Positions 56,537-64,000 of a DNA stretch of 64,000 nt are shown here, piece after piece. The number at the start of each line of letters is the position of its first letter. The stretch's first letter is position 1. This DNA comes from a bacterium (GTDB lineage Bacteria; Methylomirabilota; Methylomirabilia; Methylomirabilales; 2-02-FULL-66-22). The notes beneath the pieces are model-generated. The model searched no databases, was not told the origin of the DNA, and saw nothing but the letters and a program-made list of their open reading frames with translations. Made by a program: the position numbers and the translations under genes. The stretch is taken from NCBI GenBank assembly GCA_029580855.1, contig JAKPQH010000137.1, positions 62,001-126,000 on the forward strand. The letters run 5' to 3'.

Positions 56537-58036
56537 CTATTCCGGCAGCGCTTCCTCGCGCTTTTTGCGGATCACCGGGAAAACGAGCACAACGAGCAGG
56601 ATGGCGGCCACGGCCAGGAGGGCGGCGCTGATCGGTCGCTGCACGAAGACCGCCGGGTCTCCCCCGGAGAGGAGCATCGCTCGGCGGAAGTTCTCCTCCA
56701 GCAGCGGCCCCAGGACAAACCCCAGGACCATGGGGGCGGGTTGCACGCCGATCTTGTTGAAGAAGTATCCCAGGGCACCCCAGCCGAGCATCAACCAGAC
56801 CGAGAACACGCTGTTGCCGCTGGCGTAGGCGCCGATACAGCAAAACAGGATGATGGCGGGAAACAGGAGCCGGTAGGGCACGCGGAGCAACGCGACCCAG
56901 ATGCCCACCAGGGGCAGATTGATGATCACCAGCATCAGATTGCCGATCCACATGCTGGCCACCACGCCCCAATACAGGGCCGGCTGCTCGCGGATCACGG
57001 AAGGACCGGGCTGAATCCCCTGGATCATCAGCGCCCCGATCATGAGCGCCATGAGCGGGTTTGTCGGGATGCCCATGGTGAGCAGCGGGATGAAGCTGGT
57101 CTGGGCGCCGGCGTTGTTCGCCGACTCGGGCGAGGCGACCCCCTCGATGACGCCGGTCCCGAACCGCTCCGGGTGCCGCGATACCTTTTTTTCCAGAGCG
57201 TACGCCGCGAACGGCGGCAATGCCGCACCCCCGCCGGGCAGAATGCCGAGTATCGTCCCGACGCAAGTCCCCCGGAGTATCGCTGGGAATGACGCTTTGA
57301 GGTCCGGCCACGTCGGCATCAGATTCCTGATCTTGCCCGCCAGGATGCTGCGGTCCTGCGCGCTCCCCAGGTTGGCGATCACCTCGCCGATCCCGAAGAG
57401 CCCGACCACGACCGGCACGAAGTCCATGCCGTCGGCGATGTCGGGGATGCCGAATGTGAGCCGCGGCTTGCCCGAATTCACATCGATCCCCACGAGGCCG
57501 ACCAGCACGCCCATCAGCACCATGGCGATGGCCTTGAAGGGAGAACCGTGCGCCAGGACCACCGCGGCGATCAAGCCCATGACCAGGAGGCTGAAATATT
57601 CCGGGGCCGTGAATTTCATCGCCAGCGTCGCCAGCGGCGCGCTGAGCACGGCGATCACGAGGGTCGCCACCGTCCCCGCGAAGAACGAACCCACGGCGGC
57701 GATGGCCAGGGCCGGACCGGCCCGCCCCTGCCGGGCCATCTGATACCCGTCCAGGCACGTGACGACGGCGGAGGTCTCCCCCGGCACGTTGACCAGGATG
57801 GCCGTGGTGGAACCGCCGTACTGGGCGCCGTAGAAGATGCCGGCCAGCATGATCATGGCCGACGCGGGCGGGAGGCCGAACGTGAACGGGAGGAGCATGG
57901 CCGTGGTGTTGAGCGGCGAGATGCCCGGCAGGACCCCGACCAGCGTCCCGATGATCACGCCCAGGAAACAGAAAAGGAGATTCTGCAGCGACAGGGCCGT
58001 TGAGAAACCCAGCGCGAGGTTGTCGACGAGGTTCAC
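56537..58036 (-). CDS. tctA: Tripartite tricarboxylate transporter permease TctA (set 2)
   Basis: [84 protein letters not shown] start 58036. Confidence 0.95.
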
Positions 58037-58046
58037 GGGCGGGGCC

Positions 58047-58514
58047 TCACCACCGCGGCCAGACGGCCAGCGGGAGCCCCAGGCCGTTGACAAACAGGAG
58101 CACGGTGAAGGCCGTGAGAATCACGGCAAAGACAAAGCTCTCGCGCCACCGGAAGTCGGACACGGCGAACGTCGAGCAGGCCATCGTCGCAAAGGTCGCC
58201 AGGGCCAGGCCGCCCTTCGGGAGGAGCAGGGCGAAGACAGCCAGGGACAGCAGCACCATCACAAACGACCGGAGATCGAAGCCCGGCAGGGGCCGGTGGG
58301 TGGCCCGAAATCCGCTCGCCGCAAAGGCGAGGCCGAACCCCATGAGGATCCACGCCAAGGCGCGCGGCACGTATCCCGGGCCCATATCGGCCGCGGTCCC
58401 GATGGCGAGTGCCCGTGTCTCCCAGAGAGCCACCGTGGCCAGGATGATCAGGAACGCCCCAAACGCGATGTCGGGGGCGTTCCCGTGCTGGTTGCGTGCG
58501 GCAGATTCCGGCAT
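58047..58514 (-). CDS. tctB: TctB-family small subunit (set 2)
   Basis: Four-TM protein between TctC and TctA; TAADMGPGYVPRALAWILMGFGLAF. Confidence 0.88.
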   Translation of the reverse strand: MPESAARNQHGNAPDIAFGAFLIILATVALWETRALAIGTAADMGPGYVPRALAWILMGFGLAFAASGFRATHRPLPGFDLRSFVMVLLSLAVFALLLPKGGLALATFATMACSTFAVSDFRWRESFVFAVILTAFTVLLFVNGLGLPLAVWPRW

Positions 58515-58523
58515 CCGGCGGTC

Positions 58524-59507
58524 CTACTCCAGCTTGATGTTCGCCTCGCGGACGACCGCGCCCCAGCTCTTCATGTTGGCCTTCATCCAGGCGGCGAAGT
58601 CCTCCGGCGAGCCGATCTCCACGTCGCCGCCCAGTTCGGTGATCTTTTTCTCGATCTCCGGTATGGCCAGGATCTTCTTCAACTCGGCGTTCAGGCGCGC
58701 CACCATGGGCGTCGGCGTGCCCGCCGTGGTCATGACGCCCTGCCAGGTGCCGCTGTCCACCGCGGGAAGACTCAGCTCCTTGAAGCTCGGTAGATCCTTC
58801 AACGCTTCGAGGCGCTTGGCGCCGGAGACGGCCACGCCCTTGAGCTGGTTCTGCGTGACAAAGGGCTGGGTGGCCAGCGCGCCGTTGATGATGACGTTGC
58901 TCTCGTTGGCCACGACGGCGCGAATGGCCGCGGCGCCTCCCTTGTAGGGGACGTATTTCCAGTCGATCGCCCAGTGCTTTGCCAGGACGATGCCGGTCAA
59001 GTGGTTGGCGTTGCCGACACCGGAGTGTCCCAGCGCCAGCTTGCCCGGATTGGCCTTCGCGTAGGCGACCAGTTCGGCCACGGTCTTCACGGGAAGCGAG
59101 GGGTGAACGGCCAGGATGTACGGCGCGAACATGATCATCCCGACACCCGTGAGATCCTTCTCGGGATCGTAGGTCAGCTTGGAGAAGAGGCTTGGCGCCG
59201 CCGCCACCGCCCCCATGTCCGCGAGCAGCAAGGTGTGCCCGTCCTTCTCCGCCTTGGCCACGAGGTCGGCGCCGATGTTGCCGGTCGCCCCGGGCTTGTT
59301 CTCGACGATCACCGGCTGCCCGACGGCCTTGGACAGGTGCGGACCGATCAGACGGGCGAGGATGTCCGAGGAGCCGCCGGGGGCGTACGGAACAATGATG
59401 CGGACGGGCTTGGTGAATTGCGGATCCGCGGCCTCCGCAAGCGAACCGGCGGCCAGGCCGGCGGCCAGAACCGACAACGCCACGAGAACGAAACGACGGC
59501 TACGCAT
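58524..59507 (-). CDS. tctC: Tripartite tricarboxylate transporter substrate-binding protein (TctC/Bug), set 2
   Basis: FTKPVRIIVPYAPGGSSDILARLIGPHLSKAVGQPVIVENKPGATGNIGADLVAKAEKDGHTLLLA. Confidence 0.95.
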   Translation of the reverse strand: MRSRRFVLVALSVLAAGLAAGSLAEAADPQFTKPVRIIVPYAPGGSSDILARLIGPHLSKAVGQPVIVENKPGATGNIGADLVAKAEKDGHTLLLADMGAVAAAPSLFSKLTYDPEKDLTGVGMIMFAPYILAVHPSLPVKTVAELVAYAKANPGKLALGHSGVGNANHLTGIVLAKHWAIDWKYVPYKGGAAAIRAVVANESNVIINGALATQPFVTQNQLKGVAVSGAKRLEALKDLPSFKELSLPAVDSGTWQGVMTTAGTPTPMVARLNAELKKILAIPEIEKKITELGGDVEIGSPEDFAAWMKANMKSWGAVVREANIKLE

Positions 59508-59600
59508 GGGACACGTCCTCCGGTGCATGACAAAAGCGCGCCCCTCGTCGGCCCCTCTCTGAGACCGTGCGGGACTACACAGGCGGCAAAGTGCGTCGGC

Positions 59601-60682: not shown

Positions 60683-61843
60683 TTACTCCGCCGGGACGAA
60701 CTTCCCGGCCTTCACCTGCACCATGACCAGCGAATCCACATCCAGGCCGTTGTGGTCCTCGGCGGTGAGGTTGTAGATTCCCGACACACCCACGTACCCC
60801 TTCGTCTGCTCGATGGCCGCACGCAGCGCCTTCGGGTCGGTCCCCACCTTTTTCATCGCGTTGGCCACGATCATGATGGCATCCCACGCATAACCCGAGT
60901 GTGTGTTGATGGGGAACTCTCTGTCATACTTGTACACGTCCTGGTAGAGGTGGATGAATTCGGCGATGACCTTCTTCTGGGGATCCGAATCGGGAAGCGC
61001 GCTCCCCACCATGAGCTTGGTCGCCGGCATGCGGTCGCCCTCCGAACCCTTGCCGGCCAACTCGATGTACTTCGGGTCGGGGAGTCCGTGGCACTGAAAG
61101 AGCGGGATGGTGATGCCAAGCTGAGCCTTGTTTTTGGCCACGATGGACCCCACGGGGCCAATCGTCCAGACCACGATGGCCTGGGGCGCGGCGTTCCTGA
61201 TCTTGGTGAGTTGGGCGGTCATGTCGGTGTCCGAGGGCCCGAAGGACTCCTTCGCCGCAAAGTGGATCCCGAACTCCGGCGCGAGTTTCTCCAGCCAGCC
61301 CAGGCCGTCCTTCCCGAATGCGTCCGAATTTGTAAAGAGCGCCACCGTGGTCAGTCCCTTGGCCTTCAGGTACCCGTAAAGCTTTCGTGCTGCCGTGGAC
61401 GACCGCTGCGGCGATTTGAAGACGTACGTGTACGGGCCGAAGTTGCCGCCCATGATCACCGGATCGCCCCCCACGGTCATAAAGGTCGGGACCCCGGCCT
61501 CCTCGACGATCCGCTTGACGCTCATCCCCTCGCTGGTTTGCGTCGGGCCGATGATGGCAGCCACCTTGTCGCTGAAAATGAACTTCTTGGCGATGACCGC
61601 CGCCTTGGCCGGATCGCTTTCGTTGTCGCCGATGATCAGCTCGATCGGTCGCCCGTTGATGCCTCCCTCTTTGTTGATCTTGTCCACGACCATCTCGGCC
61701 ACCAGCTTCGTCGGTGTGCCGATGTTGGCCGCCGGCCCCGACAGGGCGAAGAACGCCCCGATCCTGATGGGCTCCCCGCCGAAGGCCGCCGGAGCCGCGA
61801 CGCCGAGAACCAGCGCAACGATGACGACCCATCTCGTTTTCAT
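60683..61843 (-). CDS. ABC transporter substrate-binding protein (branched-chain amino acid type)
   Basis: EPIRIGAFFALSGPAANIGTPTKLVAEMVVDKINKEGGINGRPIELIIGDNESDPAKAAVIAKKFIFSDKVAAIIGPTQTSEGM. Confidence 0.95.
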   Translation of the reverse strand: MKTRWVVIVALVLGVAAPAAFGGEPIRIGAFFALSGPAANIGTPTKLVAEMVVDKINKEGGINGRPIELIIGDNESDPAKAAVIAKKFIFSDKVAAIIGPTQTSEGMSVKRIVEEAGVPTFMTVGGDPVIMGGNFGPYTYVFKSPQRSSTAARKLYGYLKAKGLTTVALFTNSDAFGKDGLGWLEKLAPEFGIHFAAKESFGPSDTDMTAQLTKIRNAAPQAIVVWTIGPVGSIVAKNKAQLGITIPLFQCHGLPDPKYIELAGKGSEGDRMPATKLMVGSALPDSDPQKKVIAEFIHLYQDVYKYDREFPINTHSGYAWDAIMIVANAMKKVGTDPKALRAAIEQTKGYVGVSGIYNLTAEDHNGLDVDSLVMVQVKAGKFVPAE

Positions 61844-61984: not shown

Positions 61985-64000
61985 TCAGACGATCGAATCC
62001 TGGATTCGATCGTCGAACACCCGCTTCGTCTTGCGCTCGGAGCGCGGCAGCGAGCCGTAGTCTACCACTTCCACGTCGGCGGTCACGATGACTTTGCGCT
62101 TGATCGTGTGGACGATCTCGCGCTGAAGCTCGTCGGTCCGCCTTGACTCGACCCCCGCTCCGCGCTCCACGACCAGACGCATGCGGTCGCGTACCTGCGC
62201 GTCGCGGGTGAGATGGATCTGGTACTCCGAGCCCAGCCCGGGGATGGCGGAGAGGATCGCGTCGATGGTGGAGGGGTAGATGTTCACCCCCCGGAACTTG
62301 AACACGTCGTCGGTGCGCCCCCTGATCCTCGAATGCCGCGGCAGGATCGAGCCGCACGTGCACGGCCCCGGGATGACGCGGGTGATGTCCCGCGTCCGGT
62401 AGCGGATGAGGGGCGCCGCCTCCTTCGCCAACGTCGTGACCACCATCTCGCCCCATTCGCCGTCGGGCAGCGGCGTGAGGGTCTCGGGGTCGACGATCTC
62501 CAAGATGTAGTAGTCGGCCCAGTAGTGGATACAATCGTGGTCGGAGCACTCGATCCCCGTGCCGGGGCCGTAGAGCTCTGTGAGGCCGGGGATGTCGAAC
62601 AGCTCCGCCCCGCCCAGCAACTCGGAGATTCGCTTGCGCATCGACCGAGACGATCGCTCCGATCCGTAGATGACCTTCTTGAGGTTGATCTTCTCCGCCA
62701 GGCCGCGCTTGTGCACCTCCTCCGCCAGGAGGAGCCCCATCGAAGCGGTGCAGCAGTAGACCGTCGACTGGAGATCCAACAGAAACTCGCACTGGAGATC
62801 GAGGTTCCCCGGGCCGGTCGGAACGGCCAGGGCGCCGATTCGCTCGCATCCCGCCTGGAACCCGACGCCGGCCGTCCACAGACCGTACCCCACCGCGATC
62901 TGTACACGATCCAGCGGCGTCACACCCGCCATCTCGTAGCAACGAGCGAACATGTTCGCCCAGTCGTCCAGATCCTTTTGCGTGTAGCCGAGGATCTTCC
63001 GCTTCCCGGTGGTTCCCGAGGACGAGTGGATTCGCACGATCTGCTCATACGGAACCGATCGCAACGGGAACGGGTAGTCGTCTCGGAGGTCCTCGGCCGT
63101 CGTGAAAGGCAGCTTCCGGATATCCTCCAGCGCGCGCACATCGTCGGCCCCGACACCCGCGGCGTCCAGACGCGCGCGATAGAACGGCGAGCCCTGCCGG
63201 GCGTGGCGCACGGTCCACCGCAGGCCGTTGAGTTGATGGGCCGCAAGCTCCTCGTGGGATGCGAACGACGGCAAGAAGGTCAGCTTACTCATATCCGGCT
63301 TCTCCAGTCTGACGTTGGTAAACCCGGCGGCCCCCAGACGGCTTTGGCCGGGGCTCCCTCTCGACGCCGCCCCCAGGAAGGCGCGGCGCAGCTCCGGGTG
63401 CACGAGCAGCTCGTCGCTCTTTCCCGAATGGACGATCCGACCATTCGCCAGCAGGTACGCCGTGGCGGAGGCGCTGAGGGCGCGCGCCGCGTTCTGCTCC
63501 ACCAGGAGGATGGTCGTCCCCGCCCGGCCGAGCCGGTGGATGATATCGAAGATCTCGTCCGTGACCAGAGGGGCCAGACCCAGGCTGGGCTCATCCAGCA
63601 AGAGCAGACGGGGGCGGGCCATGAGGGCTCGCCCGATGGCCACCATCTGCTGCTCCCCACCCGACAGGGTGGCGGTGGCCTGCGCGGACCGCTCGCGGAG
63701 TCTCGGGAACCGCGCAAAGACCTCCTCGAGCCGGCGCCCCACCTCGGCCTTGCCGGGCTTGCCGGCCACGGCCCCCAGCACCAGGTTCTCCTGCACGCTG
63801 AGGTCGCCGAACATCTCCCGCCCTTCCGGGGAGAGGGCCACACCGAGCGCCGCCATGCGCGCCGCCGGTTGGCCCGTGACGGCCCGGCCGTCGAGGAGGA
63901 TGCGCCCGCCCGACGGCGCAACGATGCCTGCGATGGCCTTCAAGAGACTCGACTTGCCCGCACCGTTGGCCCCGACGATGGCCACCGTCTCCCCCTCCGC
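61985..64000 (-). CDS. LivF-type ABC ATPase fused in frame to a phenylacetate-CoA-ligase-like AMP-forming enzyme (5' end beyond window)
   Basis: VAIVGANGAGKSSLLKAIAG...ATLSGGEQQMVAIGRALMARPRLLLLDEPSLGLAPLV...LLVEQNAARAL; then SFASHEELAAHQLNGLRWTVRHARQGSPFYRARL...RIHSSSGTTGKRKILGYTQKDLDDW...GLTELYGPG...RGRTDDVFKFRGVNIYPSTIDAIL; no stop between them. Confidence 0.9.
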   Translation of the reverse strand, partial: AEGETVAIVGANGAGKSSLLKAIAGIVAPSGGRILLDGRAVTGQPAARMAALGVALSPEGREMFGDLSVQENLVLGAVAGKPGKAEVGRRLEEVFARFPRLRERSAQATATLSGGEQQMVAIGRALMARPRLLLLDEPSLGLAPLVTDEIFDIIHRLGRAGTTILLVEQNAARALSASATAYLLANGRIVHSGKSDELLVHPELRRAFLGAASRGSPGQSRLGAAGFTNVRLEKPDMSKLTFLPSFASHEELAAHQLNGLRWTVRHARQGSPFYRARLDAAGVGADDVRALEDIRKLPFTTAEDLRDDYPFPLRSVPYEQIVRIHSSSGTTGKRKILGYTQKDLDDWANMFARCYEMAGVTPLDRVQIAVGYGLWTAGVGFQAGCERIGALAVPTGPGNLDLQCEFLLDLQSTVYCCTASMGLLLAEEVHKRGLAEKINLKKVIYGSERSSRSMRKRISELLGGAELFDIPGLTELYGPGTGIECSDHDCIHYWADYYILEIVDPETLTPLPDGEWGEMVVTTLAKEAAPLIRYRTRDITRVIPGPCTCGSILPRHSRIRGRTDDVFKFRGVNIYPSTIDAILSAIPGLGSEYQIHLTRDAQVRDRMRLVVERGAGVESRRTDELQREIVHTIKRKVIVTADVEVVDYGSLPRSERKTKRVFDDRIQDSIV
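61988..62014. terminator. Palindrome overlapping the last codons of the PaaK-like ORF
   Basis: GACGATCGAATCC-t-GGATTCGATCGTC, 13-bp perfect arms. Confidence 0.6.

Follow-up and report, generated by a model that had tools for sequence, protein, structure and literature searches.

A LivF-type ABC ATPase and a PaaK-type aryl-CoA ligase in one conserved reading frame with a predicted internal start

We analysed a 64 000-nucleotide stretch of DNA (here called the window) from contig JAKPQH010000137.1 of a Methylomirabilota genome and found that a LivF-type ABC ATPase and a PaaK-like ligase are encoded in one uninterrupted frame. From comparison with the same frame in relatives, it is very probable that a covalent LivF-PaaK protein is produced and that selection maintains it. 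Judged from its nucleotides, the likeliest reading is that this one gene gives two in-frame products, LivF-PaaK and free PaaK.

On the reverse strand, window positions 61985–64000 form a single open frame with zero stops. The window edge cuts livF, and flanking DNA from the same contig was added (C137:123985-126099). The full frame begins with an ATG at C137:126099, 99 bases past the window edge, and ends with the stop at C137:123985 (window 61985). It comprises 704 codons without an internal stop (G000:C137:123985-126099, 704 aa), divided into LivF (residues 1–245), a linker (246–269) and PaaK (270–704; Table 1). The first-pass annotation had described both the uninterrupted frame and a GGAG 9 nt upstream of the PaaK ATG, and both were confirmed. 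The openness of the frame in one genome is weak evidence, as 34% of shuffled 32-codon junctions are also stop-free in this GC-rich genome. Thus, the case rests on the relatives.

Table 1. Features of the fused gene and its neighbour, in window positions.
Feature	Position	Strand	Basis
livF-linker-paaK fusion gene, part in window	61985..64000	(-)	One open frame; same layout in 62 loci
LivF-type ABC ATPase half, residues 34-245 in window	63365..64000	(-)	Pfam ABC_tran, NCBIfam LivF model, structure 1ji0
24-residue linker, residues 246-269	63293..63364	(-)	88% modal identity, 62 loci
Linker core motif, residues 252-267, consensus ASRLGAAGLTNIRLEK	63299..63346	(-)	97% modal; fused frames only
Internal Shine-Dalgarno GGAG within codons 265-266	63302..63305	(-)	Codon bias and anti-SD pairing
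Internal PaaK start codon ATG, fusion Met270	63290..63292	(-)	Start kept across loci
PaaK-type AMP-forming aryl-CoA ligase half, residues 270-704	61988..63292	(-)	AMP-binding and AMP-binding_C_2; PDB matches
livK-type periplasmic binding protein gene, next in operon	60683..61843	(-)	ATG and SD-like run at 61843

A scan of genome contigs matched 154 relatives, of which 80 were retained for analysis. Counted with the window genome and a congener (G006), LivF, linker and PaaK lie in one frame at 62 loci; the other 60 are in mostly Desulfobacterota genomes, isolates included. The congener is 80% identical over residues 6–404, through the junction and without a stop, on a contig that terminates within PaaK. 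The other carriers belong to about 60 species, mostly sulfur- and metal-reducing, a count that does not represent independent events. Carriers known from isolates or complete genomes are Malonomonas rubra, Desulfosarcina alkanivorans and widdelii, Desulfopila, Desulfofustis glycolicus and Desulfuromusa kysingii. Linker and PaaK anchor are 75 or 78 nt apart in 60/60 loci, so only whole codons were gained or lost; of the other two junction frames, +1 contains a stop in 60/60 loci and +2 in 45/60. Openness over 62 loci, combined with a constrained linker and indels of whole codons, is far beyond chance and indicates a genuine fusion. Stops between the halves in all close relatives had been named as the result that would speak against a covalent join; we found the opposite, with zero stops across the 62 loci.

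The statement that the two genes are adjacent but separate elsewhere also holds. In Methylomirabilota, we found 11 separate livF/paaK neighbours, including a pair in the genome that the window comes from. All 11 have a stop, the gaps fall in all three phases, and the linker is absent from 11/11. Three candidates for fusions of a second origin (L006, L039 and L040) were rejected: their frames are long, but LivF and PaaK are out of phase, with a stop. Three closely related Desulfobacterota MAGs are broken at the same place, by a deletion that shifts the halves out of frame (L106:7850-7915), an N run (L052:430-450) or the start of the contig (L047:1). This shared break could be either a spot that is hard to assemble or a natural split.

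The core of the linker is more conserved than either half of the fused protein. This core, residues 252–267 (SRLGAAGLTNIRLEK), has 97% modal identity over the 62 loci, compared to 78–84% in LivF and 71–88% in PaaK. Similarly, pN/pS is 0.09 in the linker core, 0.32 in LivF and 0.21 in PaaK. The third positions of codons 253–260 are free to vary, and the constraint there thus acts on the protein. We observed the motif only in fused frames when searching 24 chosen genomes, a 395-genome sample from the Malonomonas phylum and 95 genomes of Methylomirabilota. In the Malonomonas-phylum sample it occurs in 17/395 genomes, the centre genome itself among them, and always in frames of fused length except for one frame of 391 residues near a contig start, the length expected of a fusion that was apparently cut by the contig end. 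Among the 95 Methylomirabilota, only the window genome and the congener carry it. That the linker is the ordinary C-terminal tail of a free LivF was rejected, as the searched genomes yielded no standalone LivF that carries the motif. AlphaFold2 predicts two confident halves (mean pLDDT 88) with residues 244–266 lacking a fold, and neither of two structure models gives the linker a confident fold. A linker that is strictly conserved yet predicted to be unfolded suggests a docking motif for a partner. An Rfam search for an RNA element in the region gave no match.

The LivF half matches Pfam ABC_tran (E=8e-30), its best ABC model is NCBIfam LivF (E=1e-66), and its closest solved structure is 1ji0. 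It stays below the LivF equivalog cut-off (224 vs 441 bits) and is thus a family member and not an ortholog call. The Walker A, signature and Walker B columns are largely invariant over 43 fused proteins. Its ATPase domain, its motifs and its operon with livH, livM, livG and livK are those of LivF in LivKHMGF branched-chain amino acid importers of the HAAT family, and the operon of the fusion also encodes LivG, a binding protein and two permeases; however, an ordinary LivF ends at about residue 245, whereas this one continues into a conserved linker and a whole ligase. The PaaK half contains both Pfam domains, AMP-binding and AMP-binding_C_2, like the full-length AMP-forming phenylacetate-CoA ligases PaaK of PDB entries 4r1l, 2y4o and 2y27, which it matches with E=5e-104 to 3e-96. 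It is clearly divergent from these solved enzymes and, in addition, joined to LivF. The PaaK equivalog cut-off is missed (395 vs 646 bits), which places it in a PaaK-like class without a substrate assignment. In the fused proteins, the SSGTTGKRK P-loop columns are invariant and K690 is conserved at ≥90%. The half aligns with 4r1l through to RSExK, and K690 is the predicted catalytic lysine according to this alignment.

A start codon for PaaK is present at or beside the same site in 61/62 loci (ATG in 56, TTG in 4, an ATG one codon upstream in L105, lost in L109), whereas the residues flanking the PaaK Met are free to vary. Upstream of it, the bases YTGGAGAAA of codons 265–267 are kept beyond what the peptide needs. 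E266 is encoded by GAG in 56/59 loci (94.9%), where the codon usage of these genes predicts 29.8, and GAG reaches at most 70% in the next best of 29 conserved Glu columns. K267 is AAA in 87% (next column 52%), and YTG at L265 ranks first of 65 comparable columns. Each of the three codons thus ranks first for bias among comparable columns; the counts ignore relatedness, which makes their z-values too large, but equally related columns of the same alignment lack the bias. Furthermore, the anti-SD energy is −6.0 kcal/mol compared to −3.7 kcal/mol in synonymous shuffles, of which 0/200 are as low. A Shine-Dalgarno sequence and a start codon are hence conserved at the nucleotide level inside the longer frame. 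The first-pass annotation had allowed for two genes with a lost livF stop or for translational reinitiation. Reinitiation after a lost stop does not fit, as there is no stop to reinitiate from, whereas initiation at an internal PaaK start appears to be conserved. The only fused locus among the 62 without an internal start codon is the deep-branching, long-branched L109 (L109:8080-8140), and free PaaK is thus not universal. Nested in the fused clade is a free PaaK (L108:8001-9305) that starts at the internal Met without a Shine-Dalgarno sequence; no livF lies within 8 kb, an apparent loss of the LivF half.

How these observations bear on other explanations can be weighed as follows. A false fusion could stem from an indel introduced during sequencing or assembly, or from a contig that is itself a contaminant, and the window's assembly is 9% contaminated. 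However, the same frame occurs in the congener and in dozens of independent assemblies, and the complete genomes of Desulfosarcina alkanivorans, D. widdelii and Desulfopila sp. IMCC35008 share it. These independent genomes rule out an assembly or frameshift artefact, whose probability we regard as negligible. A single bifunctional chain, with the Shine-Dalgarno-like bases and the Met being incidental or serving interdomain pausing, would agree with L109, which retains the fusion without the start codon, and with a linker core that is kept at the amino-acid level while its third positions (253–260) are free. It agrees poorly with codons 265–267, the most biased among comparable columns at a distance of 9 nt from the start codon, and with a start that can be ATG or TTG or move by one codon but is lost at only one locus, in a place where the residues near the Met vary. 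We thus consider it unlikely that the fusion is the only product.

It is more doubtful still that LivF and PaaK act as two separate proteins, either because a protease cuts the linker or because free PaaK is the sole functional enzyme and the long form a by-product. In its favour, both models show a disordered linker and the internal start has been kept; proteolytic cutting would leave the same DNA signature as an intact fusion. But read-through as a by-product would hold neither a linker pN/pS of 0.09 nor in-frame indels over 62 loci. Moreover, no separate LivF was seen in the fused operons, and LivF must thus come through the fused frame. The covalent reading proposed at first pass is therefore supported by the stop-free junction in 62 loci and the strong amino-acid constraint on the linker. 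Taken as a whole, the explanation by a conserved bifunctional gene with two products and importer-coupled activation of aryl acids is, in our judgement, probable.

The operon gives indications of the function. The order livH-iorA-iorB-livM-livG-fusion is found in 26 loci, usually followed by livK, which lies downstream of the fusion in most related loci with enough flank. The livK-type gene had no NCBIfam model match. IorA and IorB match their models, with IorA just below the cut-off (634 vs 651 bits). The iorAB genes are missing or inverted at some fused loci (Desulfomicrobium and Desulfosarcina types), and the link to IOR is thus not obligatory. Some loci have inserts between livG and the fusion, which by eye are unrelated genes or a RAYT-like transposase. 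Genes similar to those of REP-associated tyrosine transposases are found upstream of the fusion at L045:578-1231 and L106:5515-6159, the latter between livG and the fusion. At L053:5848-7155, a divergent regulator (by eye a KaiC-like ATPase, XRE helix-turn-helix and cupin) lies directly upstream of the fusion. Elsewhere in the window (56537–59528) are TctA/TctB/TctC-like tripartite transporter genes, and for the TctC-like gene no close counterpart was found in the six other genomes of the genus.

From these neighbours, we infer that the operon serves uptake and CoA activation of aryl acids. In Bacteroides, IOR adjoins an AMP-forming arylacetate-CoA ligase and has been proposed for aromatic amino acid synthesis (PMC13285125); a genetic link of such a ligase to iorAB is common to both systems. 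Methanogens salvage aryl acids in an IOR-dependent way (Porat et al., as cited in PMC4162585). Ligase and IorAB, encoded in one operon, could likewise turn aryl acids into arylpyruvates here, in a system that differs in being bacterial and in having a dedicated ABC importer with the ligase attached to it. We prefer aryl-acid salvage over other functions at about even odds only, since some fused operons lack iorAB. The fusion could instead serve catabolism, in which energy is gained by oxidising aryl acids or aromatic amino acids, or act on a non-aromatic substrate; this alternative concerns only the function and overlaps with the readings of the fusion given above. It is in line with the operons in which iorAB is not adjacent and with an oxidative role of IorAB, which Desulfococcus multivorans forms in phenylpyruvate degradation (PMC5109826). 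On the other hand, the preference of AMP-forming ligases for acyl-CoA synthesis speaks for salvage (PMC13285125), and the part of the operon that was read showed no genes for ring degradation. We consider a catabolic or non-aromatic function a serious possibility, yet clearly short of an even chance.

In the PaaK tree, the fused proteins group with a clade of 13 free ligases, most of them from Desulfobacteraceae, and this group is distant from the separate pairs of Methylomirabilota. Depending on the order of its deepest forks, the free clade may be either a sister or a reversion. We rejected the adjacent separate livF/paaK genes of Methylomirabilota as the direct precursor: their PaaK is distant in the tree and they lack the linker. 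As the fusion occurs in two Methylomirabilota only, horizontal transfer is suggested, with Desulfobacterota as the inferred source.

Under the preferred explanation, the LivF-type ATPase of a branched-chain/aromatic-type ABC importer (HAAT family) would be joined through a short, near-invariant linker to a PaaK-type AMP-forming aryl-CoA ligase, and one mRNA would give a LivF-PaaK protein of about 75 kDa and a free PaaK of about 48 kDa. LivF-PaaK would pair with LivG on LivHM and keep the ligase where the importer opens into the cytoplasm, which would tether uptake to thioesterification. The flexible linker may dock on a partner, and free PaaK may complete a PaaK dimer or add capacity. An imported arylacetate-like acid would be trapped as aryl-acetyl-CoA, from which IorAB may form arylpyruvate by reductive carboxylation, to be used in the synthesis of aromatic amino acids. 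More tentatively, and with somewhat less than an even chance in our view, the gene within a gene might build a transport metabolon of a docking-linked ATPase-ligase and an inner ligase, initiated from the Shine-Dalgarno sequence within the linker codons, that completes mixed PaaK dimers on the transporter and sets the enzyme:transporter ratio.

We found no paper on a LivF-PaaK fusion in the literature searched, which included only a minority of subscription journals. Both halves are of known kinds; what is new, as far as could be searched, is that they are joined, that the linker is invariant and that a start is embedded in it. Genes within genes with in-frame internal starts are described for Cas11b (PMC11899642) and Rpn antitoxins (PMC10327210). 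There, a start inside a longer frame yields a C-terminal product, as predicted here, whereas in our case the inner product would be an entire metabolic enzyme and the outer product a fusion with a transporter ATPase. Peroxisomal ABCD transporters and acyl-CoA synthetases (PMC4900756) offer an analogy in working, with transport coupled to CoA activation; they are separate proteins in contrast to the one chain here, and we claim no common origin of the coupling.

Coupling of importers and enzymes is usually argued from gene neighbourhoods. Here, it would be built into one polypeptide that is kept in at least two phyla, which makes vectorial uptake and activation by an ABC importer directly testable. 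In the linker region, adjacent bases appear to be under constraint both for the peptide and for ribosome binding. The family is also flagged here since automatic annotation may give a name to just one of the two halves. Lastly, the fusion gives a concrete lead on the cargo of an orphan LivKHMGF system.
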